Positions 4,126 to 54,735 of a DNA stretch of 64,000 nt are shown here, in pieces. Source of the DNA: Xanthostigma xanthostigma (taxonomy: Eukaryota; Arthropoda; Insecta; Raphidioptera; Raphidiidae). Below the pieces are notes generated by a model, which was not told the DNA's origin, made no database searches, and saw nothing but the letters and a program-made list of their open reading frames with translations. The first letter of the stretch is position 1. The number at the start of each line of letters is the position of its first letter. Both the position numbers and the translations under genes were made by a program. The stretch spans positions 3,224,001 to 3,288,000 of the forward strand of contig OY754470.1 in NCBI GenBank assembly GCA_963575645.1. The letters are read 5' to 3'.

Positions 4126-4180
4126 TTCACTTTTTAGTTTGAGGATCTATAAAAGAATTTATTAATCCTGGGGGTCCTAA

Positions 4181-4547
4181 TAAGGATAATGGGAAACTGT
4201 TATCAAATTATTGCATTGTCATCGGTCCTTGATACGTATGCAAAGTTTCAAATTAATCAGACTTCGGGAAATTGGTGAAAATTATGCTCAAAGATTCCGT
4301 TACGGACATACATACATAGTTACAACCCAAACTAATATAAAGCGTTTAATAATAATAAGGATAATGGGAAACTGTTATCAAATTATTGCATTGTCATCGG
4401 TCCTTGATACGTATGCAAAGTTTCAAATTAATCAGACTTCGGGAAATTGGTGAAAATTATGCTCAAAGATTCCGTTACGGACATACATACATAGTTAGTT
4501 ACATACATACATAGTTAGTTACAACCCAAGCTAATATAAAGCGTTTA
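4181..4547 (+). repeat. Tandem duplication, about 175-bp unit
   Basis: Unit 1 (4181-4355) is repeated at 4356-4547. Both begin TAAGGATAATGGGAAACTG and end with an 'acaaccca(a)...ctaatataaagcg' segment. Unit 2 has an extra internal duplication of the CATACATACATAGTTAG stretch. It appears to be the 3' part of a dispersed repeat. The 80-aa frame across it is only the repeat. Confidence 0.85.
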
Positions 4548-12200: not shown

Positions 12201-15200
12201 GAGATACGCAGTTTTTTTTAATGTCACGTCAAATCAAATCATTTCATTGATAGAGTTAACAAACAATTAGATCTAAATGTAGGTACATCTAAACACACCT
12301 ATAATTTGATTGGATAGTACCGTTTGCGTAATCTAAATTTTAATGTGTCCATCTAACACATGTACAGTATATCTGTTACCAAAAAACAAAACCGTTTATG
12401 TAATTTTTTAGATTATTTTTCCTATATTCTCAGATGTGATTTATCAAATATGAACAAGAATCAATTTTAACATTACAGCCGGAGTCATGTATTTTCAACT
12501 TATGTAAGGATGGAGGAAAATCTGAAAATACAAAAAACGATTAATCAAGTCCAGCATTCAATTAAAGATTGAAAGAATAATTGCTTTCAACTTTGTTATT
12601 AAAATTCCATATACACTCTACCTATATAACGAAATTGAAGGGACCGGGTATTTTATTGCGTTTAAAGAGTTTTCGTTAATGGACAGGAAAAAAACATTAT
12701 AATTTAATGAATAAGTGTATTTAATTTTGACGAAATTAAATGAAAAAAATGTAGGTACATAACAAAATTATAATCTGTTAACTTTGTCGTTTTTTACTAT
12801 GCCACTAATTTGATTATATCATTTTACAACAAACAAATAAACACATTTCTAAGAATCCCATTGTTGGGGTCCAAATAATGACGTATTGTTTCGCTATTGA
12901 GAGTGGTTGTTACGCTGCGTAGAGTGTTTCAATGTATGGATAACAATGTAAACCAAACAAACCTTTTAAAGAGTTTTTCGATAAATAGAAGTTTGCTATA
13001 TAGAGTCCATACTGTATAATACGCGACACGAATCTAAAAGGCTCGGAAGTTAGATGCGAATGCGGGCTTGCACTTGTACAGTCTGTTGAAAAACTACAAA
13101 CTCGCAACTCAACAAAACTAACATAGCAATAACAACTTGTCAATAGCGTCCTCGATTGTACTTTAAAGCAGGAAAGCGACAAGTGACAAAGGCAACGAGC
13201 GATCACGGCCAATCACCGACGAGCGCCCGTTCCTTGCAGGTAGCTGGGAGGTGGCTCTGAAATGTGCCTTTGCGACGCTGTTTGTGACTAACTTCCGAAC
13301 CTTTTAGATCCGTGGCGCGCATTATATTTTAAAATTAGAGACTTTGAACATCACACTTTTCAATCCTCGCCGGACAATTTCCGGGCAAGATCTACGTCGG
13401 CGGTGGAAATCTTAGACAAAACACAAAAAATAATCGAAAATTTGACATACGCAGTTTAGCGTTTTGGCTGCAGATATGATTTCACTTATGTGCGTCAATA
13501 AATGGTGAAGGTCATTAAGAAAGAAACTAAAAATCTAGATCAAATGTTATACCTACACGATGATGTATATTTTTAATTGAGTAAGACTTACATATTATTA
13601 TGTGGTTTGTTTGTTCGCAGTTCGTACAGCGGCCCCAACACCTGTATCACGTATGACGCTGTCAACGCCGCCTACCTCGAGGCCCGAAAACGAATCGGTG
13701 AGTGTAGTCTTACTTGGAATTCCAGCTTGATCGATTACCTTGCGAAATCACTATCCATTTCATTTTACAAACAAGTTACGTACGTGTATTTATCAATGGT
13801 ACACGTCAGGCAGACGATTTAACTGACCAGAAAACACCCAGTTTGATATCGTGTAAAAAATAAAGAGGAAATAATTAAAGATTAAACATTTAGGTATATA
13901 ATTTTTTTGTGACCTATAAATGGTGGCCGAACATTCGGAAAGTATTCTAGTTTCGGCGGGGCAGGCGTGGCTTGAACTTTTTCCTACAGCCTCTCGCCGA
14001 GAAATGATAAATCCTGTAGCGGCCAATTCCCTCAATTATTCCACACAAATATCATGGCCATGGCCGATTAACTACCTGTCAAACTCATCAGTCTGTATTT
14101 ATGCATTTTTTAAAGAACATAAATTGCATCATTTGAAAAAAATTTAAATTTAATTAAATAATTTTAATCACTTTTTTAAATTTGATCACAAAGCAGCTTA
14201 CCTTACCTTAATTATCTATGACTAGCGGTCCCGCCCGTTTTCACCCGGGTGCAAAAGAACTAATGGGGGAGAGGCACATAAATACGCACATTCATCTTAG
14301 TTTACCGAGATGAATGTTGTGTCCAAACTTCATGATGATCGGACTTACCGTTCAAAAGTTTTTGTTGGATGGATAAATTTTGAGGTACATTTTGCAACAT
14401 TTTTTATTGATGTTCCGCTTATATTGGCCATAGCGTGATATTATATAGCCTATAGCCTTCCTCGACAAATGGGCTATCCAACAAAAAAAAATTCAATTTG
14501 AACCAGTAGTTCCTAAGATTAGCACGTTCAACCAAACAAACAAACTCTGATGATGTTAGCATTTAAACATAACTTGGTAGACATCAGTAAATAATTAAAT
14601 GTTAGCATCATCGGGAGATGATAATTTACCTAAGACTTTAATTTTTATTTGTTTCCTGACGATGCTAACATGATTAGGGAAACTTGAGTCAAGAAAGAAG
14701 TGTTTGTGATTTTGGCGTTTCGGTAAGAGTATTAAAAAAATGTAGGGTTCTCCTTTCGAGATACGTTGATCGACTTTGCTGATCATAATTTCAATATCAC
14801 AAAAATTGTGAAAGAAAATTCGTATTCCAACGAAATGATGTTTTTTTGTTTCCTCGACTTAACTATTTGGTAAGAGATAGGAAGTAGATTTGAAAGATGA
14901 AATTATGCAAGTCATCAATAATTTATGTGATTTAAAATAACAATAAAGAATAACATACACGATCTTTATATACAAAATGTCTGCATTGTTGCTGGTTAAG
15001 TGTGCTGTTACGAATTGTTATAAATGTATAAGAGTTTTATAACAGTGTAGTTTGCATATTTATGACAAATCTTTTTGTAACATTTAATTTTTATGTAGCT
15101 TAAAGATCCAATCTCAGTTTTAAAATTGTCTGACGTATATAAAATTGCACGTGTATTGTGTAGTTAATTGATTCGGTTGGCCAGACATAGACCTTCCAGT

Positions 15201-18200
15201 TTTGTTCTGCAATTTTTATTGATATAATTAATAATAATGAATTATTCGGTGAAATATTATGGTTGTAAAATACATGATAGCAAATATAAATAACACTGTT
15301 AGACGGTGATTCATGATTATATCTTAATAATAAAACGTTTTGAATGAAAGTACACAAGAAATATAAAAAATGGTCAGGTTTTTTGTATATTCTATGTATA
15401 CTACATTATAAAATATTATGACTTCTGGCAAAATTCGATTTTTTACATACAACAAACATCCTCCTATTTCTCATTTGATTGAAAGTTTTACATAAAAACA
15501 TTTTTTGTCTCGTACTTTGCCAAGTAGAAAATAATTATCAAACACGCAACACTAGTATAATGTATCTAGGATGGAATGAATTATATTACACGAGTGTGTG
15601 ACATTATGTCGAAATGAGCTTCAACCAGTTTTAACAGTCAAACGAGTGATATAACACTATTCCGTCTGAGATATATACAATATTTTTTGTATATACCTGA
15701 TACAAAATAGCTGCTTTTCATTTCATTTTCAAAATTAAAAACATACTTTACTTGTAATCTGATCTAATTCGTTTCTATAGAAATATATATTAATTCGTAG
15801 CGCAATTTTTTACATTAATAAGTCCTTGTAAGATATCTGGTTTATCAATGAGTCTAGATTTGATATCCAAATTTAGACTCATAATTAATTAAGATTTATG
15901 TGATTTGATATTCAAATTACATAAATCTTAAATAATTATTTAGTATGATATTAAAGACAGATATACAACAGATAATGACCTACCATTAATAGTAAATAAT
16001 TACTATAAAACAACAATAATTAGCTATAATTTCTTTGCTAGAAAATTGTACAGGGAATGTGTCTTAAAAAAAAAATTCCAGGTAATTGGGCGACGGGACC
16101 ATTCCAACTTCAAAATGTTGACATTTGATATTGTGTAATAAAGAAAATAAAATTTCTGATATCGCGTGAGGTAACGCGGGTAATGGCTAGTATTCGATAT
16201 GATATTTGCTATTCGTTGCCATGGTTACAGAATATATTGTCATGTAAAAATTAATAAAAGCACGCTGACCAGTTTATTTTTGACAGATCTACAAAACAAA
16301 CAAAAAAACAACTAATTTTTTTATTTTCAAAATATTTTCGAAACTATAGAGTTTAGAAAAAAAATTAACGAAACTTTCTTGGAAAAATAAATAGAATAAG
16401 AAGTCGTTATAAAAAGTAAACCATTATTATACTATAAAAAACACCGTTATATCTCTTCTGTGCTTGCGCTGATTTTCCCCAAAAACAATAGGGCTCCCAA
16501 AATTTGATTTCAATCCGCTCATCCGTTTGACCTGTATCGTGCTCATAGACAAACAGACTAACAGACGCACAGAGTTTTTGCAAAAATATGTTTTTTTGGA
16601 TTCGGGGGACCTCAAAACGAAAAAATATTGTCAGATTATTTAAAAGTGAATTTTGACCTAAACTAGTCCCTACCATTCCCTCCCACTAGTGGGTTGTAAT
16701 GGCAATCGGTAATCGGCAAACGCTGCATAAATGATCTGCTTGTTGCTTTTTATTACGGTGATTGTAAACAAAATGTAAGCTTTCGCTCCAGAGAAACTGT
16801 TTAATCACGTTCAAACTTAATCGGCACCGAGTGAAGAATTAGAAAAATGTCAAATCATATGTTCCAATCTCTGCATATCAGATGATCTGCATACATGTAA
16901 TATAAGCATCACAGATTCGCTACCTAACTATGTTTTTCTGTATAAATTTCATCCGCCGTAATACATTTAGTCCGGGTTTCAATCGTAATTATTAGGGTTC
17001 TGTACCCGAAGGGTGCACAACGGGACCCTATTACTAAAGCCTCCGCTGTCCGTCCGTCTATCTGTCAACGGGCTGTATTATCATGAACCGTAATAGGTAT
17101 ACAAAATTTATTAGCTTGGATAAAAAGTGGTTCTAAAGCTATACAACTTTTTAAAATTGGTCATTCTATTGCAGTAATCGTATATAATTCAAAGATTTAT
17201 AGCTTACAATTTTAAAAAAAGTAATACGGAAATATATTTCGCTTTAATGCAGTAGAACGTGTTTTAAAAAAAACTAAAGTGCATCGGAGATACTGATCTT
17301 TAAATCCGCGTGTCTTTATCGATCATTAAAGTCTCCGTGTATTACTTATGCAAGTTCTCTTTATAGAGTGCGGTTTTAATATATGGACAACTTTTTGGTT
17401 TAAAATTTTGAATTCATAAGTAAATTTAAGTGGCTAGCAATTTTTTTTATTTCAAGGTGTAAAAAAGTTGGTTATAGGTATCTAATAAGATTTTTTAAAT
17501 ATTTGAAAATACCGACTGTATTCAGTTCTGACAGACAATAGTCCGGTAACCGGGCATCACGTAGTATATACGGATTCTTCTTTCCGGTGAAAGTAATTAT
17601 ACTGTATTTATATTTGTATCAAAGTGTGCGCGTATGTCTGTAAACGGTGATAGAAGCAGTATTGTCATCACATCGCTAATGCCACCAGATATGTATTATT
17701 TATATGTGCCAAACCCATAATTCATTGACTGCATTGCGTATAGCTCACGGACTGTATCGGCCAAATTCTCGCAAAGCACTTATTTTTTACATGAACCGTT
17801 TCGAGTCCTTTTCGACACCCGATCTCTATCTCCGAAGCTAGTTGCTTGTTAAATTGTCCGACTAAAATAGTGATGAAAAAAATGTTTACGACTCCTGTTG
17901 TGAATATTTACCTCTGCAACTAATAAAACTTGGAGTCAAGAACAAAATGCACATGCAAATAAATACATACATATCATTTGTTTTAATGCATAACAATTTC
18001 AAGTTAAATTATACCAATGATTTGTAACTGCAGTGGAACAGACATAAACTGTAAAAGTTAATATATTACGTTTAAAATCTAGAACAATTAATTAAGTAAT
18101 AAAATTTTCAGACGCAAATTAAACTAATGTTACATTATTATAATAATATTATGAAGATATGAAAATTGTAGGTTACTTTGTTAATAAGTTGTATTTGTAT

Positions 18201-21200
18201 TTGAATACGAGTCGGACGCGCAATGTTTGAATGAACTAGAATCTAGATGAAGTTCTTCTTTGAACTAGTTCATTGCAAATTGTAGACACGATTGCATAAA
18301 AGATCGCCACACCTAATCGTTAAATGTTTTGTTCAAATTAAAGTATAGAAACATAAAAAAAATAAAGAATAGTTACTAATTCTTACCACAACAGTTTTAT
18401 TAGCGGATGTACATTTCGAGAGCTATCTTCAGCAAACACTAAGTTTAATAAGACTGTTGTGGTCAGAATTAGTAACTATTCTTTATTTTTTTTTTTGTTT
18501 CAACCACAGCGCTCTTAATATTTTTATATAGAAACATAATTGAAACATTCTAATGCAGGATATAAGAAAACATAAGTCGACAATGACCTTAGAATGTGAT
18601 TATATACGAATATCATTACCATTTTTATGATATTTATGAGGGAATAATCTGTGGTTGTCAAACATTGTATGTAGAATTTTCTCACAGAAAAAAAATTACA
18701 AAGAAAAAGCTCGTCTTTTAAAACTCAGTGAAGTCACAATACGATGCCAAGTCACAAAAAAAAAGACGGGTTGCACTCCGGGAGTGTCGGCAGAAGTGAA
18801 AACTTGAATATTAACGTCTTACGAATTTTCGATCAGGCTACGTGTCCTGACGCGAGTTTAACATTTTTTACCCATTACAAAAAAAGTGTACAACGCCGCT
18901 AAAGAAGTTTTCACTTCAAAAATATTTTCACCAGATTTTCGCTATACGCTCCGTATATGAGAAAGTAATAATTGTTGATTTCTATGGCAGAAATACAGTC
19001 GCTACCTGATTTTAATTTGGTGTCTAATAATAATAAAAAAACATGATTCCCCATCACCTATAAAGTATGTTACATACGTGGAGGATATATAAAAGGATCA
19101 TGAAGCACGAACAATCAAAAATTAATATTAATATTCTACAACAGTCGTGCACCACCTTTCTTCATAACAAACCGTGAACTAAAAGAGGCAAAGAACTGGT
19201 TCATTACCTTATTGAATGCGATTTAATGAGCCACTAGTCGTTTGAATAAATGTATACAATGTATATGTATGCAGATGAATATTATTATGTATATTACATA
19301 CTCTACATCTATATGCAATCTCATTGAATCGTTTGCCTTTTGCACAACATCGCTTTATACATTAGATGCATGCCGTATGAAGATAAAACATTTGGTACAG
19401 TGGATTGTTAATTAGCATAATATTACTATATCAAGCATTTGTTTATTTACTGAATGTGCGGTGAGCGACGGCAACAAAGAGTGCAAAAAATATATCTCCA
19501 TCTCTTATTTCGAAGTGATTCCTTGGTTATTCCGACAATACATTAGTATGGTATGTATATTATATTTTTTGATCAAAAGTGCTATCTTTTTATCTATGAC
19601 AGTAGCCAATCAGAACTAACGAACTATTACTACAAAAAAGACAGATTAATGCTGGGTTGCAAAAGGGGTTGTCAAAAAATCTGATTTGACAATGATCTTA
19701 GATTGTGATCATATAATTATAGTTTCCATCATCAGGAGCAGTCTAATATATTCAAACTCCCTGTCATCTAGATTCTAGAACATTAGATTGTAGTCACAGA
19801 TTGTTCTACATAGAAAAAAACAGCTTTTCAATCTAGATTTTGATGAAAATGCGTAGAAAAACGTTGTTTTGAAGTGGAAACTGTACAAAAACTTTGCTAA
19901 ATACATGAATAAAAAAAATTGTTTCAATCAATCAATTATTTTTCGAGCGGGATCGATTTCAAACCCTACTATGCTTTTCATATGGGAAAGTATATAATCT
20001 AAGGTTATTTGTCATGTCAGATTTTTTGACAAGCCTTTCTGCAACCCAGCGGTACCGTTATCGATGATGCCAATAGGATCCCGTTTTGCATCACCCAGTT
20101 TTAAAAAGTAGCTCGGTAATAAATCACAAACGTTTCTGTCAGCGACTAGACGACATTTAAAGATCTAGGGTGTGGTACAAATGTTGCCCTTAAAAATATT
20201 ACAGGTTCTACTGTACAACAATACCGGAGAAAATATAATTACGAAACACTGTGTTTGACACTGCTTTTTTTATTGCATGCATTATGTTTAATCAGTGTTC
20301 TCTATCTTTGTCTAATCTAACGTTAACACTGCATATTTAAATCTTTTGTTCGCAAATTTGTATTCATATGCTAATTTGTTGTCGAAATAATATAATTGTA
20401 TAGTATAGATTCACTAAACCATACGTAATTTATTGTAAAACTTTCGTACAAGAACAAACATTTTTTTGACGTGATAACGTCTTATAAATTGATGAAACAC
20501 CGGCTGCATGCACGAAAAAGTGTAACGTTCCGAAAAGTGTAGCGTTCCGTCTGACCCTGTGCGTGCAAGCGAGAGCGCAGTATAAGCGATAGAGAGTCGG
20601 TAAAAATATAGTTTGTCAGCTACTAAAATTAAGGTTATGTATTATTATAAATATGATATTTGAGCGGAATACGTTATCACGTAAAACTATCGTCCGTAAA
20701 CCGACTTTACAGACAACTAATTTTTTTTTTGCTAATTTTACAGCAACCAATATTTTTATGCATCCTTTTTTAAATCGATACTCGAAAAAAACGTTTAAAA
20801 AAATCTAATCACCTTTCAAAAAATGGTCACTAAAAAGCGTAAAAAATAGATAGATAATGTAGATTATAAACAAATATGTTCTGTGCAAAAATATCCAACA
20901 AGTGGAAAATGGTATAAACCGTAAGAACATAAATGTAGGTATAGCTTTATTAATATTAATCATTATTATTAGTGTCAATTTACGTAAATACAAGTTACGT
21001 CACAAAAAGAAACTGGAACATATTAATTTTATGGATGATTTTGTTTACAAAACGGAAACTCCTTCTTTAAAGTAAAATAATACACAAATATTACAAAATG
21101 TTTGTGAAAAGAAGAAAAGTATAACCTATAAATTACACAAATTATGCAAGAACTTAAGTGTAATGGAGTTTTCACATATATAATAATAGACTGTTGACAT

Positions 21201-24200
21201 AATAAAAGATTGGATTTGATTTTAAATTTTGTACCTAAAACTGCGGAAGTTATTTTTACGTTTTTTTTTTATGTAAAAACTTTTTACGTCACTAATTACT
21301 TATTGCGTTTCAAGGGGCGAGAATGGTTATTATTATTAGTATATTTGCCATAAGGCACTTACACTATTGGCGTCAGTGGGATGGCGGGACCTAGGGGTCG
21401 GACCAAAATTTCTCGACGTTTCATAGCCTCCTAAGGAGTTTGGCACCATTTTTGGAAATGTTTATATGTATATGTGTTAGCATGTTAACTCTCGACAGAC
21501 TTAATCGATTTAAACTAAATTTGGTCCACATGTTGGAATCCACCACCGCACGAAGCCTATTTAAAATGGGCCCAATCGGGCCATATAAAGGGTGGTATTT
21601 AGGAGTTGAAAAAAATTTCGGGCCCAAAAATACCAAAAATATTCTCGGAATCGTTTCAAATTTGAAATTTAACCCTTTAGTAATTTTTAAAATGTGCTGC
21701 TAAAATTTAAAAAAAAATCGGCCCGACAGGTTGATTATGTAGTATTGAAATTAAGTAAAAAAATGTTGTTTTAAGGGGTGTATTAAGCGGTATTTTTTTT
21801 GTTTTGTCCAAAAACAAAATTAAGTTCATACAATAGAACCTCACTGCCTATAAAAGCAAATAAACTATATTGTCAGCAGGATTTGGCACTGCGACCCAAG
21901 TTTTTTTTATTACTATCTCATGAAATTCGTTGATTTAAAGATGATCATAGAAGTAAAAATGAAATTCAAAACTCTTTGACTGTAGAATAGTTGAGATTGT
22001 ATTTTTAACCGACTTCAAACAAAGGAGAACCACTGAACCGATTTTGGTCAGATTTTCAGTACATGTTAAATATTCATTAGGAAATATGATAAGCTTTATT
22101 TTATCGAACTTTCAGAGTAAAAAGTAGCCATAAAAACAGAGCGAATCTGCGAGAAAAGGCTAAACAAAAATATTACTTATAATATTATGTTCAAGATATA
22201 AGATTAATTTTAACGCTCAAATTAACGACTTTGGACTTGAATAAGTACATCTCTACGTTACTTAACAGTTAAAAATACGCGGAAGTGTATTACTAAGTTG
22301 TTTGTTTAATGCGGACACCGTACAGAATATTTCTCATAATATTTAGATTTTAGAGGTCTGATATAGCAATATGCTAAGTTCAATTTTAATGAACATAAAC
22401 TATTTACAAGACCCCAGATCTCAGCATCTAGCCCAAAAGCTTGTAAAAGTCGCAATTGGATTTTCAATTTATTTTTATGCTTCAAATAAATAAAATTGTC
22501 GACCAATTTTTTTCAGACTATATATATTGACAAAAATAAAATTATAAATCAATATTACAAAAAATGACGTTCGATCTGGGTTTAGATCTTCTTCAAAAAT
22601 ATCTAAAAATATAAAAAATTAATTAGTAAAATCTACTTATTTTTTGTAATATTGATTTATAATTTTATTTTTGTCAATATATTATAGTCTGAAAAAAATT
22701 GGTCGACAATTTTATTTATTTGAAGAGTTCTATTCAGACGTTAATCAAAGATTTGAATTATTATTATGCTGTTAAGCGTCTATAATATACAATATATCTA
22801 TCTTGACATACCCGTAGGTATATAGTACAATGTGAATGACTTAAAAATTTAATATTTCAAAAGATAAGGTCTACGATATCGATTACTGGTTTCTCACATT
22901 TAAAATATCCGATCAATATAATATTTTCGACAAAAATTCAATTTAAATATATATACGTGTGATAGTTTTGTGTCAATTTATTTTATTATCTTTATTTATC
23001 GGTACTTTAATATAATAGCGCGTCACATTATAACTAATATATCTATGCACCGAGAAGATTCCTCTTCTTTCAAGTGATTTACCTAAAACTTGTTTTGAAA
23101 GTTGTTTCCACTCTCTCTGCAGCTAGGTGCCATACTATAACGCCATCACAATCTTTTGACAGTGAAATTTTCGCGATGACCAATAAATAACGGTCAGTCA
23201 TTTAATATTATCGTGGGACGAACGCATATTTAAACTCGTATTTGTGAGAAACTTACATCCTTCTATTGTTTATGATGATTACTGATAAACAATTATAATA
23301 TCAGTACCTATACGATTTTTGAATTATTCATGTTATAAATATTATCTAGTCGAATTCCAAGATCAATCCATGGTTTGCGCAAAATTGTTACGCAGGGAAA
23401 GGGCCATGAGGGTGAAGCGCCCTCAAAATCAACTAGTGCGCTTTTCAGCCTTGAGATGACTCGCCGGACAAAATTCAAGGGACGAGTCCCTAAACCGCTG
23501 TTAGCCTATTTGGATATAAACACTGACACAGATATTTATCAGATAATTTAAAAAAAAACTTCTGTTTTTCTCATGATTTAGAAGCTATGGGCACTCGAAA
23601 TTTTTGTGCAAATTTTGGGAAACTTTAAACCAGAAGATTTGCGCTCATTGGAATCAGGGTGACTTTGCAAAAGTTCTGAAAGATTTCGAATTTTACCAAA
23701 AATGATTTTTTTTAATAGAAAAAAATCGAAATCTTTGATAGATTTTTCAAAGAGAGAACCTTTGTGAAAAATGCTGATTCCATTGAGTACAAGCAAATTT
23801 CTTTATCTCTTTTGATTCAGAAGTTATGGGCATTCGTTGATTTTGTTGCGAATTTTTGAAAACTTGAAATGACTGCAATTTGTAAACTTGAAGAATTACA
23901 GATGTTTGTTTGTGCCTTTTTGTAGAACCATACTGAGTTTAAAAAAGTTCTGGAAGATTTCGATTCTTATTAAAAATAGTTTTTTTTTTGAGTAAAAAAG
24001 ATATTACCTAAAACAGCTTACGACTACGTCTTATATCATGAGGTTTGAAAGCAATATCATCAGTTTGTAAAAAATACAGTAGGTACTTGAGACTTTTCAG
24101 GACAATCTTTGTCCTGAGGGCAAAAAATCACAAAGGCTTCCGCCAAGACCAATCACGCATTACGTAGTGTAATTAACATTTTGTCTTTTTTTCTAATTAA

Positions 24201-27200
24201 TTATGTTCCGTTGTATGCATTCTTGTTTCCTGTAGTTAATGTTGTTTGTTTGTTTCAGATGTATCTCATCCTAAAGGCGATTGGCGTCCAGAGGACATTG
24301 CCAGTGTAGGTGAACTGCTCTTGGATATATCAATTAACTTAGCAAGGACGTAAGTAAATATAAATGTCAGAAGTATATATCAGGTTTCATTACATTTTAA
24401 CACTGACAATAAAACATTGCGAATCAAGTCCTAGAACGTTTCTAGAACTGAACTGATTAGATCATCTGATTTCAGTAATAACTACTTACAGCATCTGACT
24501 TAGATTGAAACGATTAGCTTTGGACTTTTTCGGATAAGCTCACGTAATCGTCTCGTAATATAATTTAAAATAAATTTTAATAAAATTAATAAACAATTTA
24601 AAATATTTATTTTGAATGTTTTATTATTAAATTGTTGTTAACAAGATATCTTAGAATGTACACACAGAAAATTTCTGATATGTTAATGTGATTGGAATTG
24701 ACAAAGTGAAAAATAATCGATTAAACGACACATACAAAAAGAAATTTGGATCGGTAGATCACCAAGTACTCCAGATTCTCCCTGATGTGATTTAAAAGAA
24801 ATATTTCAGCACTTTTTCACAGCTTATTTTTAATACATCCTATTTCAACCTTTTAAAACCTACTGCCTTTTTTCAGACAAAAAACATATTTTTTTCTTTA
24901 TTTCACTGCGTCGTTCAACATGCCAAAACCAAAATTGACACGCGCCGTGACAAAACAAATAGACAAGTACAGTAAATACCCAATTCTAATTATTACCTCT
25001 AAACTACGTACAATGTAATATAAAAGTTTTGAATCGTTACATAGCCCCCCCAGCGGTTCATACGAACAATTTTAGAATAAAGAAATGCATGGAGGATGAA
25101 CCGCTTAAATAAATGAGAATTATGTACTACCTGGAATTTTACGAAGATTTACCACATTGAATAAAATACTAATCTTCGTTTACACGTACTATATAAAATA
25201 TTAAAAAAAAACATAAAAATTTCAAAACAATTAAAAAAAAATTAGTTAATGAATCTTTTCAACTGAAAACAATATAAAATGTTCGAAGAATTTTCAACTA
25301 TAAAAAAAAACAATTGTGTTTATATTTACTGCAAAGTATAAAATAAAGATCTGTGCATTTAGATGTTCAAAGACAAAATTTAACTAAATCATATCACAAT
25401 TTATGCACAGTCATAGCGCGTCATAGTAAAATTTAATTATGAACTATGACTGTCCATAATTCCGCTTTAAATTCTTTATGCACCCGATAAAAATGCACAA
25501 TTACACAAACAATTGACTATCTACTTAGTTACTGTTGTTGCAGGGCTTGTTGATTAGCGTAAAAGGGATTAGGCACTGCTGCGCCCGTATTAGGAGCGAA
25601 GTTTTGAGATTGCATCGTTTGTTGAGCCATCACAAATTGATTCTGAGGCGGCGAAACAAATGTCGATTGGTTTTGAAAAGCTTGCTGCGGTTGCGAGGAA
25701 GCTTGCAAGTTTGTCGGATAAACTGGAACTTGAAATGCTTGTTGCTGAACTTGAAAGCCAGGAATTGCCCCTGTCGGAGCGTAATTTGCTTGAAATGTGG
25801 TTTGTTGCATCGGAGCATTGCCGTATAATGCCAATATGCTATCTTCAGTTAATTTCGTCTCTTCTTTTTCGGTCGAAGTCGGTTGATTAAAGAAACTTTC
25901 TTCTTCGCTTTGAACTTTCGCGTTTTCGACACTGGATTTGTCGTCTTCTTTATCCCAATTTACTTTTGGCAGTGCCGGAGGCAACCATTCTCTGGCGATA
26001 TACTATTTATGTTCATATTTCGCGCGCACAAATGACTCTAAACTAGAATCGTTCTGAGAACGCCAGAAATGGTCGGGCAAATTTGCTTCGTAAACAGCCC
26101 AAACACGACTGTTGCCCATCTGTTGAGATAATATATGTCCATGTATCCAGATTCACTGATTTTACTTTCAAAATATGAACGTCGAGATTTCTATGTATTC
26201 CTGCACAACTTATACATAAAAACATACCTATGTTCCACGATGCCCAACGAGGACCTTTTGTATCGCAATCGACACAATATTTATTATCCTCATCTCTTAA
26301 CCAATCATTTACTTAGTACTTGCTGGTATTTGTCCTGAATTTGTTTAGCACGATCTTTTTTTTTCACTTTTTGTAGTCATTTTAATAACTTAAATTTTAT
26401 AATATATAAACACATCGATTTATAGTTAATTGATTGATATTGATTTAATAATAATTATTGATATTATTATTAAAATGTCCAAAATGTCACTTGGTGTTAG
26501 TCTGGATAATTTCCAAGGTCCAGTCTTTTTTCGGGCGCCAAATGAAACGATTAGCTTTGGACTTTTTCGGATAAGCTCACGTAATCGTCTCGTAATATAA
26601 TTTAAAATAAATTTTAATAAAATTAATAAACAATTTAAAATATTTATTTTGAATGTTTTATTATTAAATTGTTGTTAACAAGATATCTTAGAATGTACAC
26701 ACAGAAAATTTCTGATATGTTAATGTGATTGGAATTGACAAAGATAATCGATTAAACGACACATACAAAAAGAAATTTGGATCGGTAGATCACCAAGTAC
26801 TCCAGATTCTCCCTGATGTGATTTAAAAGAAATATTTCAGCACTTTTTCACAGCTTATTTTTAATACATCCTATTTCAACCTTTTAAAACCTACTGCCTT
26901 TTTTCAGACAAAAAACATATTTTTTTCTTTATTTCACTGCGTCGTTCAACATGCCAAAACCAAAATTGACACGCGCCGTGACAAAACAAATAGACAAGTA
27001 CAGTAAATACCCAATTCTAATTATTACCTCTAAACTACGTACAATGTAATATAAAAGTTTTGAATCGTTACAAGATGCAGTAAGTATCGGTTCCGAGTGT
27101 GCAGCTCTCTGCTGTCATCGGTCCGTTACGCTCGGTTTTGCAGCAAAAGTGTACCAAAATGCACAAAACATTGACTGCGTTCAGCCGATGGTCAGCAGTT

Positions 27201-30200
27201 GATCAAATTTAATTTCGATAATTAAAGTAATTTTTTTATAATATTAATTTCAAGGTACGGACTAAGCTATGAAGATATCGAAAAAGGCTTACCGTTGATA
27301 GATACAAGTAAAACGTTTATCAAAGAAGTTTGTCCACCCTTCTTATCGAATGTAGAATGCCGACCGGGAAAATACCGTCGCTACGACGGACTCTGCACCA
27401 ATTTGGAACATCCAACATGGGGCGCCAGCATGACACCATTCACGAGGTAACTAAACATGAACCTGGAAGCATATTTTAAAATAAAATTTAGAGATATTCA
27501 ATATAGTTTTCGTGAAAAATGGTAAAAGAGGCAAAACGTTGCCAAGGAATTGTAGTGACAAGTTTCAAATTACGGAGTGATTTATTTATTACAGATTGAT
27601 CGGACCATTGTTTGCGGACGGCATGACAGCACCTCGGATTAGCGTGACCGGCAACCAACTGCCGTTGGCGCGTGTCGTATCGCGGACAATCCACCCTGAT
27701 GAAGGCTTCCATGATCACGCCGGCACCGTCATGGTCATCGCCTGGGGTCAACTCATAGACCACGACTTCACTCTAACTGCAACGCCTCTCGGTGCGTACA
27801 CAATAATTCTTTCCATCGATTAACATTTATCTACAGGCACCGAAATTACGTTTTTTTAAGGTCACCGACAGAAAGGATCATAATTTCAATGGATTATTAT
27901 TTAATAAGCAATTGCAAATCCAAACCAGTATATTCTTGAATTAGAATCTCGGAACTGGAGACTTGCAATAGAGAAGGCATTGATTTCAGGCATCCGTATT
28001 TGTCTACCAGGCTCCGAAACTACGTTTTTTTTTAAGGTCACCGACAGAAAGGATCATAATTTCAATGGATTACTATTTAATAATCAATTGCAAATCCAAT
28101 CCAGTATATTCTTGAATTAGAATCTCGGAACTGGAGGCTTGCAATAGAGAAGGCATTGATTTCAGGCATCCGTATTTCAGCTGATTTTGTAATGATTAAG
28201 TAGTTATTTATAGCATTAATATTATTGATGAATTATTTGCATAAATTAATATGATGTATTGTAGTTTATTTTTGCGCAAACTTGATAGAACAATAGTCAT
28301 GCACCACTGCAGTATGATCTAACTTTAAATGATTGATTATTTTATTTTTGATCGATTATGGACAGCTCTCATTGTTTCGTGTTATTAACTCCCACCCACA
28401 ACTATATTTTACACAACCTTGAAAAATTAGAGATGCTTAGAAGTACAGTAAGTTTCACAACTCCCGTAATAATAAATATAATAAAAAAGATACAGAAAAA
28501 AACATACATGATTATGCATACATAAAACAATAAATATTGATTTAATACGCTTAAGATTTTACGGTCTGAAATTTCATTTTAATTATTGAAACCAGGGGCG
28601 GATGGGCTCAACTATTCCGGCCCAGGAACATAACTGTGTCCACCGTTGCTTTATTTGTCAGTTTCACATTTTTTTTTCAAGCACAGGATTGTTTGTTTTT
28701 TAATCCGAAGATGAGAAAAAGATGCAATAAAATAAGAGAACACAATTTTAATAATTTTTTTTGTTTACAGATCCGTTCAATAGAAATGATCCCGAAGAAT
28801 GTTGTCACCGACCACCGCATCTAAAGAATCCGTATTGTAACGAAATCATCATTCCAGAAGACGACTACTTTTTCAGATTATTCCATGTGAATTGCATGGA
28901 CTTTGTCAGAGCTTTCCCGTCACCGCGTCCTGGCTGTAGATTAGGTAATTATTGGCTTGTGATCAAGTTGGGTGCACTTATTCCATAATAAATATTTTGT
29001 ATATATATTTCTTTGTATGTTTGTCTTAAGGGGAGCAAACCCTCTAGACGCTCGAAAATGAGTATTATTTTATTAATTTTTTTAAAGCTGATATGATAAT
29101 CGCATCATTTTAAAATTTGGACATCATTTTATTACAGCTTTAAATTTGGAAAAAAACATTTTTTTTATAAAACAAAATGGTGGCTCTGTAAGGTGTTTCG
29201 TATAGGTACCTACAGTTACACGTTATATAGATATATATACAATAAGGACCTACCGATACAATGTAAAAGTATCCGCTCTTTTAAAGCAGATACCCTTACA
29301 TCTATATAGATTTAGATACCAATACAATAAAGATATCTGCTTTAAGTTTTAAGCGCATACTCTATCATATTCTATCGGTATATAGATAAGGATATCCGCT
29401 TTAAATTTAAAGCGGATAGGTAACCAGAATCTATGAGGTTTTAAACTTTATTTTAGGTTCAATGATATATTAATTTTTCTCGACCTAAATTATCTTTTAA
29501 TGTTATCTTTAATTGTCAAATACAATGTTATTTAATAAATAATGAAATTATAGTAGAATTTATTGTAAGAACATAAAAAACGAGAAAATCTTAACGATTT
29601 TTTAACTATTTTTCAGGTTCCAGAATACCTTTCAATACTTTGACTGGGATTCTCGATGCAAACACAGTTTATGGTGTAACTGAAAAATTCGCAAGGTACT
29701 TCATATTATATTATTATTAATATTATAAATGCGAATGTAAGTTTGTTTGTTACGCTTTCACGCAAAAACTACTTAACCGATCATCATGAAACTTTGCACA
29801 TACACTCTTGAAGGTATTAGAAGTAACATAGGATACTTTTTATTAAAAAAAAATAAAAAATTTTTACGAAAAATAAGAAAATTGTTTGTCAAAATATGTG
29901 CAATACCTCAACCCCTGATATGCATGTCAAAAGTCGATTTCCATCTCAATCGCGGGCGTAGCCGCGGGTAGCGGCTAGTACATAATAAAAAATATCGACC
30001 TTGTAATTTATATTGTGCTTTTAATCATCATTTTGATAAATGATAAGTAATTCTTGTCTTGTCTCATATAAATTCTATGATAATATAAATTTTTAATAAT
30101 TACTTGTAAGGGTGCAAAAAGCAACCTTTTTGTATTGATTTTTTTTTTGTATTATTCGAGATACGGAGACACTAAATTTTTCGATAGATTGCTAATGAAT

Positions 30201-35080: not shown

Positions 35081-38000
35081 TAATTTTAAGTAACTTATAT
35101 ATACGCAACCTAAGACATTTTTATAAATGAAAATTATTTTTGGAAGTTGTAAAAATTATTATTACATTTTTAATATTGTTACGAGATCATTATAAAATAT
35201 TTGTATAGTTAAGGAATTCGATTTAAAAAAAGTTGCACATTTTCAAAAATTTGTGCAATTAATATTTCGTAATATGAATTTGCAATGTTTATTTAATTTA
35301 AATAACATAGTTCTGCCGAATCATCTGGTTAAACGATTTAATAGATGGGGGCTGGTAACAGGTGCTCGCGCCAGGGGTGCAATGAATAATGAAGGGTCCC
35401 AGCTCTAAGACACTGAACTTTTATCTTTTTGTTGTTAGATGTTTCGAACCATTATATTGTCATTTTTAATTATTGGTTTAAAACGTCAACAGCAAATAAA
35501 TAAATTTTCAGTAAATTATTTTAGCCAGTATATTCTCCAGAAAATTCTGACTTAGGTAAAAATTGAATAAAGTATGGACATAATATTTTGTTTTAGAGTC
35601 ATTCAGGTATTTGTATGTAAAAATAAACCTAAACAAAATTTATATTAATAGACGATTACTGGGAAAAATTAATAGATTCATGGACATTTTTTCCCGATCA
35701 ATGTATTTTATGCGATCTTCAGATTTTTCAAATGAAATAAAAATTGCACACATATTTTAAATAAAATTACGTTGCCATTTATTTTATGAAACTTAAATTT
35801 TTGTATAAAAAATAATAAAAAACAAAAAAATCGTAGTACTATCAATGCGTGTAAAGAAGTAAAGGGTATTTATTTTTATATACTGATTTAAATATCGATA
35901 TTTTTTAGTTCGTTTTTCATTTTCCATATTTAACGATTTACATCAGGAATGTATTTTTTTCATTTTCACTTTAGCAGATGATTATCTAAATTATAAAGAC
36001 AAGTCCACACGGCACTGAATTTTTTCTGCACAACGCCGTTGCCCAGGTAAAGGTCGATGCAGATGTTGAATGTATACTGAAAAAAGCCGTAACGCTGTGA
36101 ATTGCGAAGACTGTCTATTTCTAACCTTAAACCACACTTTGAAGAATAGTGGTCCCTCCTCAGATCAAAGCGATTTATCAAAACGCGTTAGTCTGGAGGA
36201 TATAGAAATATATTTTGTAAAAAAAAAAAAATTAAAAAAGCCACAGTAGTTTACAAAAGCTATTCATATTTTAGGCGCAAAGTTAATAATGCTTATAAAA
36301 TCTAAAACTTCAAAATTAGTAAAAATAAGAACAAAATTGTTTGTAATAATTTAGTGTTTAATAATTCTAGAAAATTTAATAGGATTAGCATTCGTTTTAA
36401 TGTGCGTACAGACCGGTTCATCGAAAGGGTTTCATTGGTCCCCGGTGTGGGCGGTTTAGCTGGTCTTTGCTCGCAATTGGAACATTCGAGGGAACGCCGT
36501 GAGGATGGCCAACGAAGGAATTCTCGTCGAGGACTGGGCATAATGTGGCACACGGAATAATAATTTCTTCTACATAAAGAAAATGGGATTCGCGTCCAAT
36601 GATCAAAAATCTACAAATACAAACCAAGCGATAGGCAACGTCAAATCTTGTTCGTTGGGTCGGTCTGTACGTACTTGTTGACTGCACAAATGTTAAAGAT
36701 GGGTGAGACATTATGACAACCCCATGAAAACCGTTGCAGTCCCAGATTCCAAAAATTGATATTGAGATATGTAAAGAAACTGTTTGACTGCGGTTTAAAA
36801 TTATTAAGTTAGTGATTAAAAATATACAGTCTTGTAAATAACACAACAAAAAACATTTTTTAAATCCAGAATTAAACGAATTCAATTAAAACTACTCTAA
36901 TATGGGGGAAGAGAAAAAAATTATGTGTAAAATGTAAAAATGATTTTAGTTGATAATACACGTACGTATTATTTTATATAAGTGTTTGCCAAATCATGTA
37001 TAGTTTGTTCAAAAAATTAAGGATTTAACAAATCTGTAGCTAAACATCTATTGCTTTTTAGGCTATGCGCCCATGGACACTTTTTCTAAGTGACCTTTAA
37101 ACTACAAAATAAAACCATTGTTGATCAATTTAACCGAGAACCAACTCCAATAAGGTTTGGGCGGGGTCCTTTGCGAAGCAATTCTTAAATTTGTGGACAA
37201 ACTATATTTATTTATATTTAAGTTTTATATTTTACGAACTACTAAGAAAATGGTATGAAACATCTTTTCTAAATATATTACTTATCATTGTATATTACTT
37301 TTCTAAGAAAATAAATTATTATATTACATATAAGTTCTAATGGCGATTTAATAATAAATATCCTATGTGGGTCGAAGTGTTAATCAGGCGGAAGGGGTAG
37401 TTATAAAAACTTGAAACAATTCATTAGGATCGTTGCTAATAATTCTAAGTATCGTATATTACATCCCCGTTCGATTTTACAATAGTTAATAGTATTTAAA
37501 ATACAACTGAGTGATTCAATATTTATTAAAACTATATCACATAAAATATATTATAATCACTCATATTTACAATTGAAATAAGTTTAATTGAAATTTATAT
37601 TTTAAATATTGTTGATTTTACTCAGCTAGACATTTCATCGACTTTCAATTTTATGAAATATTTATTTTATAATATTAAAAGTGAATGGCATAATTGAAAT
37701 ACAGTTTTTTACAGAATTAAAATAATAGCCAATAATCTCAGTACAACGATTATTGAACACGCGTCTTTTTTATAAATGATAAAAAATGCACGGCTTGAAA
37801 TGTATTTCTATTTTTTTTCATTAAGATACTGCGGCGTTACGACCCTTTTTATAGTTTATTGTAAATTCTTTTAAATCCTTCTTACCATTCCGGAAGGCAA
37901 AACCTTGCAGAAGCTACTCTCAAAATAATTGTTGTCGTGAATTTAATTTATTGAAAATTATGGGTGGATGGATAAGTAATATTTATTTAATAAATCGTCA

Positions 38001-38147
38001 AATAAGAACATAAATTTATGACTATGAATCATAGACACTATGTAATAACTTTTGTATACATAATTGTAAATATATTTTGTAAATGAAATACTCAATATTT
38101 ATATGTGGAAATGAGCAAAATGGTGTTTTATTTTTTGCATTCCTAAC
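35081..38147. other. Peroxidase 3' UTR, then intergenic DNA
   Basis: The 3' UTR probably ends shortly after AATAAA at about 35494. Beyond it, frames at 36302-36885 overlap on both strands around a GC-richer patch (36410-36545) and match nothing I know. No gene supported. Confidence 0.5.
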
Positions 38148-38736
38148 TACAGTGTAAACTCTATATAACGAGCTTCTATTTAACAAAAAACTCCTTGAAA
38201 CATAGAAATTGCTTAAGGTTTATGTGGTTTACATTGTTTCGCTTATATTGAAATACTCTTTGCAACGTAACAACCACTCTCAATAGCGAAACAATACGTC
38301 ATTATTTAGACCCCAACCAATGGGATTCTTAGATTTTCTTGATTCAGTGTGGAAAAATAAGGAGGAACAAGGCGATGAAGAAGACGGAGTGGATGATCTT
38401 GAACCACCACCAAGCATTGAACAAGCTCTGCATGCCGCAAAATATAATTAGAAAAATCCTTTTTATTTAACGAAGAAGATCCCACCATATCCCAAGATAT
38501 GAATAAAATAAAACAAAAGATACATTTAAAATACTGGCGTAGTAAAAAATGACAAACAAAGTCAACAGATTATACAATTTTGTTATGTAAATTATTTTCA
38601 CTTATTTTAGTCAAAATTAAAACCACTTATTCGTAACATTTTATTGTTTTATTTTACTCTCCGTTTAACGAAAACTCTTTATAACGCAATAAAATACCCG
38701 GTCCCTTCAATTTCGCTATATAGAGTTTACACTGTA
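38148..38736 (+). mobile_element. pogo/Tigger-like element with transposase tail
   Basis: TACAGTGTAAACTCTATATA at the left and its inverse TATATAGAGTTTACACTGTA at the right, flanked by TA, give a 589-bp element. At 38320-38451 the + strand encodes GFLDFLDSVWKNKEEQGDEE and PPPSIEQALHAAKYN then a stop, like the acidic C-terminus of pogo-type transposases. The DDE core is missing, so it is an internal-deletion derivative. Partial relatives are at 484-634 and 12612-13016. Confidence 0.85.
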
Positions 38737-40722
38737 CCTACTTAAAATATCGCTAAATATTCGATTGTATAAGAAATGTACTCACTAGCGAGGTCGTAGG
38801 GCTGTAGAGTTTGATTCCCACCACCGTGACCATCCAGAACATCTCATGAAATTTTATCAAACTCTGTCGCGAGCGAATACTGTTTACTATTCTGGTCAGC
38901 GATACCCCCTTCTCCCCGATTTTTTGTTTCAGTTGCAACCCTGAATACGCGTTATACAAACTATTAAAAATGACCGTTAGTTGGTTTTATTTTTTTAGGA
39001 ATTGTTTCTCGATTTAAGTGATTTCTTGTGCTTATAATTTCGTGATTATAAGTATTTCCTGATTTGTATTCCGTTATTAATCATAAACGCTTGAGTATCT
39101 AGATTTCATAAAAAGAATTATAGAGGGTATAAAACCACCGGTTTCACGTCACAACGCACCGGTTGTTACCGGAAAAAAAACACTAAATAGGTAAATTTTA
39201 CCACCACAAGTTTTTTGCTTAATGGTGTTCCCTTGAATTAATTATTTCCTTCAAAAGATGCACTGTTCAAAATACAATAAAAAAATTTGAAGAATTTATT
39301 CACTTATACTTCACAATGTAATATAAGCGGCATAGTTTTTATTTATTTTATGTGACGGCTATGCTTTGCATTAATTCGTTCCTTTGCCGCTCCATTAAGC
39401 TACTATTTTGGACCTTACTAGAGGCATTATAAAATAAGAAATTAAAAACATTTTCTGACTTGCAATTATATAAAACCAAAACAACGGATTGGGAACTATA
39501 TGGTAGGTACCTATTAATGAATTTATAAAACAAATAAAGAACAAGTATTTAAATACAAGGTCGTGATATTACAAATATACATGAAGTCCAATTTTTTGTT
39601 TATAATCACACTCTCTTACCACTTGGTACTCTGAAGCGACAGTATCCAAATTCATTAAGTAAAAAAAGTAATTACTTTTTAATTAATGTCCTAGCTACAT
39701 TTTTTTGTGCAATCAAGCAATAATCCATTCACTTTAAACGATTCATTACATTAAAAAAAATGGTATCAATGTATTGACGAGTTTGACTGAAAAGTAATTC
39801 AACAGGATGCAAATTAAAAAATGCTTATTTATTACTTTTTGTAAAATCACAAAAAAATCTGGGAATTTTTTACAAGAAAGATGATTTGTAGATATGTCTT
39901 TTCACAATTTAGAAAACATCACATCATTTACCTATTTGGTAAACAATACGCCCTGGACATTTTGTTAAATATTTTGATTTTAAGTACGTTTACCAACAAT
40001 TCCGCTGATGGTGCAGCGAATCTAAAATGGTGAATATGACAGATGTCAGGTAATGTTTTATTTCCACATGAATAAAAATTATACACGTGCTTATTATAGC
40101 ACTATTTTCAACTAATTTCATCGATCCATTACTTGCATTTTCTGTATCCTTTCGGCATAAAATATAATGCGTTCCGTACTCACAATTTTTTCTCCTTCTG
40201 TGATTTTTTTTTATAAGAAGGTTGCGTGTTTGCCAACGTCATTAAAAAGGAAATACGCTGCAGTTTCTGAGTTTGCAATTATTTTTTTTTTCATGTCGCC
40301 ATACTGATTACGATGGAAGTATCCATCCAATATGTCAGATAGAAATTTTAATGGGATGTCAGTTTTTTCCCAATGTCTTCCTGATATTTCTCCAACGTAC
40401 ACGGGCTTCCCTAATTATGTTTCAACCAAAAATACGGTACTGTTTAATTACGGTAAATTAATTACGTACATAAAAAATTCGAAGGAAAGATGTAAAAATG
40501 TAGTTTTCAAGTATAAAGGAGTAGTTGGTTCATGGTCATTGTGTCAACGACCGGAGTGTCAATGTCAGTATGTACTTTCATTGAATATTAAAATTGCTGT
40601 ACCTGGTTTACATTGATTTTAGACACATAAGTAGACGCATTGCATCGTGTGTACACTACTGTACATAGAATGATTCATAACGAATGTAAAGAAATTGTTC
40701 ATTTACATTTTACAGTATTTGA
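38737..40722. other. Intergenic, no gene recognised
   Basis: Frames at 38753-38959, 39348-39533 and 40211-40616 lack recognisable motifs and overlap on opposite strands. Nothing else identified. Confidence 0.45.
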
Positions 40723-41086
40723 TAGAGCTGTAACAAACCGTATGTATTCGTTACTGAGTAACGGGTACATCGTCTGACTCGAAGTACCGAATAGTTACTT
40801 ACAAATTCATTTCGTTACTCGCATCTGTTGTATCGAACTGACATGGAGTCAGTTCGACTCGTTTGATGCGGTTATACGTTATACGAACGAAGTCATGTAC
40901 CGTATCACGATGCGACGCGCTTCGATGATTGATGCCAGAGAACATACATTTCTTGTTGCTGTTAAACACGATTGTATGTCGTATGAAAAGTAACGAGTAA
41001 GGTAACGATACGAAAGTAACGGGTACTGGCTCTTTAAGTAACGAATACATACGGGTACACAATTTCTCGTTACTTTTACAGCTCTA
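40723..41086. mobile_element. hAT-like MITE, copy 1, with 8-bp target duplication
   Basis: TAGAGCTG at the left and CAGCTCTA at the right, 364 bp, flanked by perfect GTATTTGA duplications (40715-40722 and 41087-41094). The interior is dense in AGTAACG/CGTTACT. Eight-base duplication and TAGAG-type ends indicate hAT. Confidence 0.88.
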
Positions 41087-43442
41087 GTATTTGATAACTT
41101 TATCTGGATACAGTACCAACTTTAGAGGCGATCGTTCAGGGTACCAGACCTAGAGGGATAGCGAAAGGCTAGTTTTTAAATCACCGATAAAAATAGTTGA
41201 CAAAACCAAAAAGCACACAGCCCGGAAGTTCTTTCACAGTTATTTAGTCTAAAAAGAGCTGACTTCATAATAGTCAAGACTCAACTTACAAAAACAAATC
41301 AGAAAAAAAACTAAGAACTGATCGTCTACCCAATCCAGAAGACATCAAAGTGCTTCCAATAAAAGTTTTTTATTTTTTGCATAGTAGTCCATGCGCGTAG
41401 CTAGAGGGGGGTCATCCTGGCTCATCCTACAGATATAAAGATTCAAAATAAAAAAAAAACATTACCTCAAAAAAAAAACTGATCAGACAGACCGGAATCT
41501 TTCAAATCCTGTAATGGCGCCAATGTATCAAACATTCAATTCGTTTAGACAAATTGTTGAGATAAAAGCACCGGATAAATAGCTAATAGCTTATTATTAT
41601 AAAGTACCGGAGAGCACTACAGCGTAGGTAATGAAGAACGGATGGTATATACTGTAACATTTAAAATGCTTCGAATAATTTTCAATATATTAAATGATAT
41701 TGATAGAATGATTTAAAATCGTGAAATTAACAATGTAAATAAAATTTGTACAATGATTTGGTTCCACGCGCTGACACGCAATAATACATAAGTGAAATTT
41801 AATATCCAATTGAGTTCACAAAAATATGGAGAAACTGCAAAGTTTACAACCTTATATTAAATAAAGTTAATGAAGGATTACAGCTACAAATGGAAGCTAC
41901 TGCAAGGACTCAAGGAGGTATAAATTATTTTTAGTATAGGTATTCGCAATAAAACAGCTTGACAACAGTGCCGGTTTAAGCATTTCTACGGGCACTCATT
42001 TCTAACAGCAGTCTAAAAAATTCTAAAAATATAATCTGTCTCTGTCATGTTAAGTTTATAAAAAAAACTTCAATAAATAAAATTACCGACCAATTTTTCA
42101 GGTCGATAATTTTATTTATTGAAGAGTTCAAATCAGACGTTAATCAAAGATTTTTATAAAAAAAAAATTCAAATTGTGAATGTCATAAGTTTAAAATTGG
42201 TAGAAAACAGTTAAAAAGCATAGAATTTTATGGAAAAAATTGAATTTTAAAATTAATGCTCTCATTAAAAATTTGTCTCTAAAATCGGTCCTTAGGCATT
42301 TTTATACAGTTAATTGAAAAAAAGTTAAAAAAATTTTTGGTTAAAAAAAACACTACGTTTTCATTTTCAAAAATAAACTAATATTTATTATTAATTTCTG
42401 TTCTTCTGAAGACAATTTTATATCAGTAGATCACATTTTTGATAACTTGACAAACAGAAAAAAAAATTTGTTGGCACGGTCTAGTAAGGTACTTTTAATT
42501 TCTGAATTGTGATTTTTGGTGCCCCCTGAGACGTGATGCCCTAAGCAGTTGCTTATTTTGCTTATATGTTAATCCAGCACTGCTTGACACAACGTCTGTT
42601 CTAGGCGTGGAACCAAAAAATCTCGACGTTTCAAACCATTCCGAACAACTTGACACTATTTATGAAACATTTTATTTATTTGAAGAGTTCTATTCAGACG
42701 TTAATCAAAGATTTTAATTTTATTTATTTGAAATTTTCAAAAAGAGTACCAAATTTTTCCGAATGAAGTGCAACGTTGAAATTTTATGTACTAGCAAATT
42801 TGAAAATCGTGAGATTGTTATGTCGCACTCTGTATAATAATTTTAGAACACAACTAACGAGTACCTGATCAAATCAGATGTCAGTTATATGTAATGTGTA
42901 ATAATATTAGTAGACTGATAACTTCTTAAGTCCAAAATGGAAATGGGAGAACATCAGAAGTGAAAAGTTTTAAGCGCGCTAGGGGGAGGGGGTAAATTGG
43001 CCTAGATCAGACGAAAAGCGAAACGCTTCTTTAACTTCAACCGGAAGTTGAGTTGAAATAGTGGAAGAATTGTTTCTACACGTAACTCCACCGGTAATGA
43101 AGGCAACCATTGTATACAATTATGTTTTTGATGTTTTCTAAACTGCTTTTGTTTCAAACGGTACGAAAATTTTATATATTGGGATTTGAGACGAGATAAC
43201 AAGAAGTATGATCAACATCAATCTTATGAATACGACACGTTTGTATGTTCATTTGTTTGCCGTATGTAATCACAGGAATTACTGAACCGATTACAAAAAA
43301 TATTTCACTGTTTTAAAGACTGTCTCTTCCTGAGTTATTAGGCTATAATAATACAGCAGGCGATTTTAAAGCTATTATACGTTTTCTAAAAATTAGAAAT
43401 GAGTTAGTTGCTCCTGATTATTTGGTCCAAGCATAATTTCAA
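41087..43442. other. Intergenic with Penelope-tail fragments
   Basis: A small perfect hairpin at 42067-42124 uses the same ends as 22481-22727 (AATAAATAAAATTACCGACC and its inverse). 'gacgttaatcaaagattt' recurs at 22735, 42135 and 42697. A repeat fragment like 21390-21720 is at about 42600-42670. No gene. Confidence 0.5.
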
Positions 43443-43802
43443 TACAGTCGAACCTGGATAAGCAAGAGTTCAAGGGACCGCGATCTCTTTTTCGCTTATG
43501 GAGGTTTTTTACTAACCCGAGTTTCTAGCTAATAGAGGTACATAAGTGGTCTTTCTCACTTATATGATTTTTAAATTTCGTGGAACTATTAATACGGTAG
43601 ACTATCGCTTATGGAAAGGTACAGATAAGTAGTAGTCTCAGTTATAGAGGTCCATGAGTGAAAAAAGTCTTTCTCTTATATAGAGGTTTCTGTTTCTCAC
43701 TTATAGAGGTTTCAGCGAGTTACAAGACGGTACCCTGGCAATTACTCTCCCTTAGAGAGTTTTCACGATTACCTAGTTCTCACTCACTCAGGTTTGACTG
43801 TA
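43443..43802. mobile_element. pogo/Tigger-like MITE with internal repeats
   Basis: TACAGTCGAACCTGGATAAG at the left and CTCAGGTTTGACTGTA at the right are inverse-related and TA-flanked. The interior repeats 'cttatagaggt'-like units and 'tctttctctta' blocks. Distinct family from 38148-38736. Confidence 0.75.
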
Positions 43803-45894: not shown

Positions 45895-45978
45895 CTACTG
45901 AAGGAAATGTTTACTTCTTGATTCCATATCACTAAATTGAATGAGTATAATAGCATTAGCAAATACAAAACCAGCAAT
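45895..45978 (-). CDS. Gustatory receptor exon 4 and stop
   Basis: Acceptor TTGATTTTAG, 27 codons IAGFVFANAIILIQFSDMES and on, then TAG. Holds the TM7 end with QF. Confidence 0.82.
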   Translation of the reverse strand: MAGFVFANAIILIQFSDMESRSKHFLQ

Positions 45979-51827: not shown

Positions 51828-52130
51828 CTAGCCGTACCCGGCCACGCGTCGCTGTGGTCCAGTCTGATTTGCGCGTGTTGCTGTTACGTTCAACAAATGG
51901 CGCTCCCTTTGCGGTAAAATGTTTAGTATAGCGAGTGTTGCTTTAACATCCAATGGATGGCGCTGTTTTTAAAAAAAAATGCATGTAGTCACCTGTCACG
52001 GGTGTGATATTTAAATAATATAATAGGTACCTATTCGAGCTAGTGAACCGTTGTGTCAAAATTTCAAAGCAATCGGTGACGAACTTTAGGAGATTTGTGA
52101 TTTTGAAGAGATGAACATTAAATTTTTATT
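51828..52130 (-). mobile_element. Helitron-like element
   Basis: ACTAGCCGTACCCGGCCACG at the left is a Helitron-type 3' end on the - strand. The interior shares 'caaaatttcaaagcaatcgg' and 'cacctgtcacgggtgtga' with 32093-32262, and 'atggcgct' repeats. Confidence 0.6.
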
Positions 52131-54590: not shown

Positions 54591-54735
54591 TTATATTTTT
54601 GTTATTTTAATTAAAATATACAACACATAAAAGATTTTTCATAAAAAAAATTATTGATTTTGCGTGGATCGCGGTCGCGCGATTCGGTCGCTTGTAGATT
54701 TGTCAGATGCAGCTATCAACAGCCAAAGCCAGCCC

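Follow-up and report, generated by a model that had tools for sequence, protein, structure and literature searches.

Non-autonomous long terminal repeat (LTR) retrotransposons such as TRIM and LARD keep LTRs and priming signals and are devoid of gag-pol. Cellular mRNAs are reported to be copied into LTR elements, a process named LTR-mediated retroposition and attributed to template switching at short shared sequences, for which a review lists Drosophila, mosquito, zebrafish and chicken (PMC5408686, PMC9674220). Pxyfem of the diamondback moth consists of partial PxyMasc cDNA copies joined to LTR elements (PMC9674220), and plant LTR elements with captured genes are known from maize Bs1 as well as from surveys of rice and sorghum (PMC7264820, PMC3726574). 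Here, we describe an LTR element found in 64,000 nucleotides (hereafter the window) of Xanthostigma xanthostigma (Raphidioptera; assembly GCA_963575645.1, contig OY754470.1, positions 3,224,001 to 3,288,000), which encloses a decayed copy of an SMAP1-type ArfGAP message and whose cargo was very probably damaged before the present insertion took place.

Sequence comparison within the window delimited an element at 27072..24506 of the minus strand that is by structure a complete non-autonomous LTR element, with the order 5′ LTR, TT, primer site, leader, cargo, non-coding stretch, G7-CTA, and 3′ LTR (Table 1). The LTRs share the termini TGTAACG..GTTTCA and differ by a single 6-bp indel, with no substitution in 530 aligned bases; a 530-bp repeat of such identity is not of chance origin. 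The target-site duplication (4 bp) is perfect on both outer sides. An earlier sequence-only reading of this DNA had proposed the minus-strand LTR pair of 536 and 530 bp with TG..CA ends, the AGAT duplications outside of it, and a primer site and G-tract, all of which were recovered here, the last two as TGGCGCCC (26540..26533, minus strand) and G7-CTA at their expected places. Its interval of 24506..27076 located the element properly, but took in one of the two duplication copies. The primer site presumably resembles the complement of the 3′ end of a lysine tRNA; no tRNA genes were found in the window by ARAGORN. The non-coding stretch downstream of the cargo perhaps combines part of a host 3′ untranslated region (UTR) with part of the 3′ end of the element. 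The inverted repeat immediately ahead of the G-tract does not fold unusually well (z = −0.68; 50 of 200 shuffles equal or better), and its chance estimate of 0 is uninformative, as the pattern was drawn from the same sequence. BLAST searches with the LTRs and the interior (E up to 1e-3) recovered no further copies in the window, the sole extra rows being a weak 40-bp match (80%) between an LTR and the reverse strand of both LTRs.

The cargo shows homology, in the sense of the LTRs and spread over three frames, to SMAP1-type ArfGAPs of insects (protein search and tblastn). In the protein search, 440 of 639 candidates passed an E-value of 0.001, and the best 120 of these 440 were used for the SMAP comparisons. 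Among the matches listed, the SMAP1 of the lacewing Chrysoperla (P0006) is one of the nearest, with tblastn identities of 72%, 85%, and 74% over 18, 59, and 72 residues of the ArfGAP half (frames −1, −2, and −3, respectively) and a fourth piece in the Gln-rich half (39% over 174); a scarab and a ground-beetle protein (P0004, P0037) reached similar scores. The best solved structure by sequence was the SMAP1B domain 2crr_A (E 7.9e-30), and Pfam ArfGap was detected in a single frame (E 8.9e-23). This was the sole Pfam match on the minus strand between 16500 and 26499, a scan that spans the interior minus its first 43 nt (26500–26542 of this strand and 24501–27099 of the plus strand lie outside of it), and no gag or pol was found there. 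The claim that the element carries an ArfGAP instead of gag-pol was thus supported. Cargo and protein are colinear across the ArfGAP domain, with no long insertions in the cargo (tblastn); the comparison was made at the protein level. Introns are to be expected in the parental SMAP1, as in insects in general.

LINEs (long interspersed nuclear elements) commonly generate processed pseudogenes, and such a pseudogene could have landed inside an LTR element. However, no long A run was read on the minus strand from the stop of the cargo to the G-tract, a stretch in which the cargo junction is unplaced, and the scanned minus-strand interior has ArfGap as its sole Pfam match, with no gag-pol, which leaves this explanation scarcely credible.

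No open reading frame (ORF) runs through the ArfGAP domain. The C-terminal half is back in the frame of the ATG-like start after two other frames in between, and these three frame changes are accompanied by an in-frame TAG at the codon of the conserved Lys127 (Tribolium numbering), so that the longest ATG-initiated ORF of the cargo on the minus strand has 93 aa. Considering as conserved the columns with at least 95% identity in the 120 listed proteins, changes were present in 3 of 42 columns of the zinc-finger piece and in 12 of 55 of the next piece. From the latter, 10 columns before residue 89 (6 mismatches) were excluded for being around a frame change, and the short N-terminal piece (2 columns, 0 differences) was left out of the count. 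This resulted in 9 changes at 87 conserved codons (8 missense, 1 nonsense), with R55, G64, S68, R95, and R107 among the residues lost. Among the 120 listed SMAPs, 100 had enough columns to be scored in this way as controls: 69 showed no change, the median was 0, and 99 had at most 4, the outlier being P0062 (22 changes), which may be a faulty gene model. CpG decay as the source of several of the nine changes was a guess that we do not claim, as ancestral codons are unavailable. The spacing between the WDKE and EEESFF motifs is 13 residues in the cargo vs. 83–142 in the 110 of 120 listed proteins that have both, and the cargo ends with ..LQQQ, where Tribolium and others go on to a TNxW-like tail (a loose version of this pattern fits 56 of the 120).

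Because of the three frame changes, the in-frame stop, the eight missense changes, and the missing middle, the cargo is read as a pseudogene and not a working gene. The sequence-only reading was right about a SMAP-type homology with a zinc finger, but no open gene is present (three frames, TAG), and its suggestion that, if there are other copies, a family mobilizes a vesicle-trafficking gene was not supported, the cargo being a pseudogene. A functional gene-carrying element, in which either the ArfGAP or its C-terminal open stretch makes protein, could draw on the four retained zinc-finger cysteines and on the 157 codons that are open at 25529–26002. Yet this stretch has no Pfam match, and the frame changes, the stop, and the loss of the five residues named above and of others speak against any such product, which makes this the least credible of the explanations.

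The LTRs and the cargo can be read as two clocks. If the nine changes had accumulated after insertion, ~49 differences between the LTRs would be expected, whereas no substitution was observed (P ~7e-22); the probability is 2e-12 when five changes are counted and 9e-8 when three are counted, and a conditional test, in which all 9 changes fall in the cargo, gave 5e-8. These values rest on the assumptions that each codon has 2.25 non-synonymous sites, that rates are equal, and that the parent was conserved to the degree seen in the listed insects. As substitution-free LTRs surround a decayed cargo, the damage is very probably older than the present insertion, and the insertion itself is probably young. 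The most economical reading suggests that an earlier copy of the element already bore the dead cargo. An old insertion, with the cargo decaying in place and LTR-to-LTR gene conversion (a known process) keeping the repeats alike, could imitate the mismatch; but the 6-bp indel persists next to 530 identical aligned bases and the 4-bp duplication is perfect, so that conversion would have to be near-complete and very recent. We consider this very unlikely. A single event, in which the element took up either a badly copied mRNA or a transcript from a SMAP1 processed pseudogene that had decayed beforehand, making this the founding copy, would equally yield substitution-free LTRs around a broken cargo. 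It requires a transcribed pseudogene as donor, however, and no second ArfGAP match was found in the window (the extent searched); this remains an unlikely explanation, less so than an old insertion.

Probably, then, the locus arose by LTR-mediated retroposition of a SMAP1 message, followed by at least one further mobilization as a dead passenger that ended in a young insertion. Beyond the anatomy, the duplication, the decay, and the clock mismatch, which are evident from the sequence, we infer template switching, a helper, and an extra round. SMAP1 mRNA would have been co-packaged with element RNA, and reverse transcriptase would have jumped from the 3′ part of the element into the SMAP1 mRNA and then back to the leader, leaving a processed SMAP1 copy enclosed by LTRs, primer site, and polypurine tract. 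Such a chimera, retaining the cis signals, could be copied by the proteins of an autonomous relative (a gag-pol helper), its cargo decaying while resident in the genome or over further cycles, until a later round placed the present copy, with substitution-free LTRs, in a peroxidase intron. Several points weigh against this account. No second copy, helper, or parental gene turned up, the search for element copies having covered the window alone; template-switch junctions are not placeable without a partner element; and the missing middle segment could reflect alternative splicing of the parent instead of decay. Moreover, there was no match in viral contigs (two LTR pieces, exact), prokaryote contigs (primer site, exact), or phage records (whole region, near search), collections in which insect DNA is not expected. 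A search of viral contigs with an ArfGAP pattern returned 107 stretches, with no relatives among them.

The element lies antisense in a peroxidase gene (10916–35074, plus strand), between the piece at 24261–24350 and the exon starting near 27255; subtracting the element and one duplication leaves an intron of ~330 bp. The gene consists of 13 aligned pieces and is apparently complete, with 84% identity to Tenebrio over the part compared, and, judging from its alignment, it is apparently intact. Three beetle peroxidases each aligned in 13 pieces, those of Tenebrio (58–90% identity) in order around the element. Since these pieces keep their order, a poor local assembly is unlikely; an assembly artefact, which the sequence-only reading had named as a possible refutation, or a chance repeat was rejected on the basis of these pieces and of the perfect duplication that bounds the LTRs. 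In a tree of 32 chosen peroxidases plus the window protein, with no Neuropterida among its named rows, the window protein branches outside both a beetle clade and a clade of fly, moth, and caddis proteins, the three meeting at an unresolved fork. The empty target site, rebuilt from 24483–24505 and 27077–27086, is a 33-bp imperfect palindrome (TACTTACAGCATCT / AGATGCAGTAAGTA; 13 of 14 pairs, 5-base loop), and the insertion into it may reflect a target preference. By the same rule the window holds 27 palindrome rows (overlapping registers counted) vs. 0–3 in five Markov controls; palindromes are therefore common in it. Just past the peroxidase piece ending at 27796, a 176-bp unit is present within the gene in two tandem copies (27825–28177, 94% matches).

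Table 1 Features of the LTR element, its cargo, and its insertion site (window positions)
Feature	Positions	Strand	Basis
Target-site duplication, left copy, AGAT on plus (ATCT on minus)	24502..24505		Flank comparison
3′ LTR, 536 bp, TG..CA	24506..25041	−	BLAST alignment with 5′ LTR
G7-CTA, polypurine-tract-like, abuts 3′ LTR	25042..25051	−	Position and composition only
Inverted repeat GCGGTTCAT..ATGAACCGC	25053..25104		Repeat search, fold test
Non-coding stretch 3′ of cargo	25052..25528	−	Read from sequence
Cargo, SMAP1-type ArfGAP pseudogene, ATG-like start to stop past ..LQQQ	25529..26380	−	Homology, motifs, Pfam
Zinc-finger part of ArfGAP domain, in a single frame; four Cys retained; R55S, G64D, S68L	26136..26312	−	tblastn, conserved columns
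Leader, primer site to cargo ATG; candidate element leader or host 5′ UTR	26381..26522	−	Read from sequence
Putative primer-binding site, starts TGGCGCCC 2 nt past 5′ LTR end	26523..26540	−	Position, sequence
5′ LTR, 530 bp, TG..CA	26543..27072	−	BLAST alignment with 3′ LTR
Target-site duplication, right copy, AGAT on plus (ATCT on minus)	27073..27076		Flank comparison
Peroxidase intron with the element inside; gt at 24350, end of ag near 27254	24350..27254	+	Protein alignment

Elsewhere in the window, 1.8 tandem copies of a 175-bp unit (100% matches) were found at 4178–4497, and short inverted repeats built on ACGCGCGT are clustered at 7048–7210. An open frame of 349 codons on the minus strand (46914–47963) has a weak match to the chemosensory receptor family 7tm_7 (E 5.9e-6, 26.3 bits vs. 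a cut-off of 26.6) and had no relatives at an E-value of 0.001 in the protein search. No Pfam matches were found at 14500–24500 of the plus strand, 36000–45999 of the minus strand, or 50500–60500 of both strands.

Set against metazoan LTR-mediated retroposition as described, in which a host mRNA is likewise copied into an LTR element (PMC5408686, PMC9674220), the locus differs in that both LTRs, the primer site, and the G-tract are intact and in that the cargo damage appears older than the insertion. With Pxyfem, for which template switching was inferred, it shares an insect host cDNA linked to LTR-element sequence; Pxyfem, however, is described as 11 copies located in W-linked transposon graveyards that yield silencing RNAs (PMC9674220), whereas a single complete and young element is present here. 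As with the reported plant gene-capturing elements, host gene sequence is carried and part of such cargo decays to pseudogenes, but Bs1, a plant element, holds sequences of different host genes (PMC7264820, PMC3726574), as opposed to the single gene of this insect element. Against this background, it is a new instance of a process known in insects, structurally complete and with evidence of re-mobilization. In the absence of gag-pol it is similar to TRIM and LARD, from which it differs in typical size and by an interior that is an identifiable host gene.

More tentatively, the element might belong to a multi-copy insect family that has a dead SMAP1 message as its standing interior and is spread by a helper. 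By analogy with Pxyfem acting on PxyMasc, sense transcripts, together with antisense SMAP1 in the peroxidase pre-mRNA, could then give rise to small RNAs that target the parental SMAP1; we regard this reading as a whole as doubtful. The locus provides a clean and complete example of how a host message can take the place of the genes of an LTR element while the signals for mobility are retained, and the pairing of fresh LTRs with a decayed cargo offers a simple test of captured-gene re-mobilization that is usable on other genomes.
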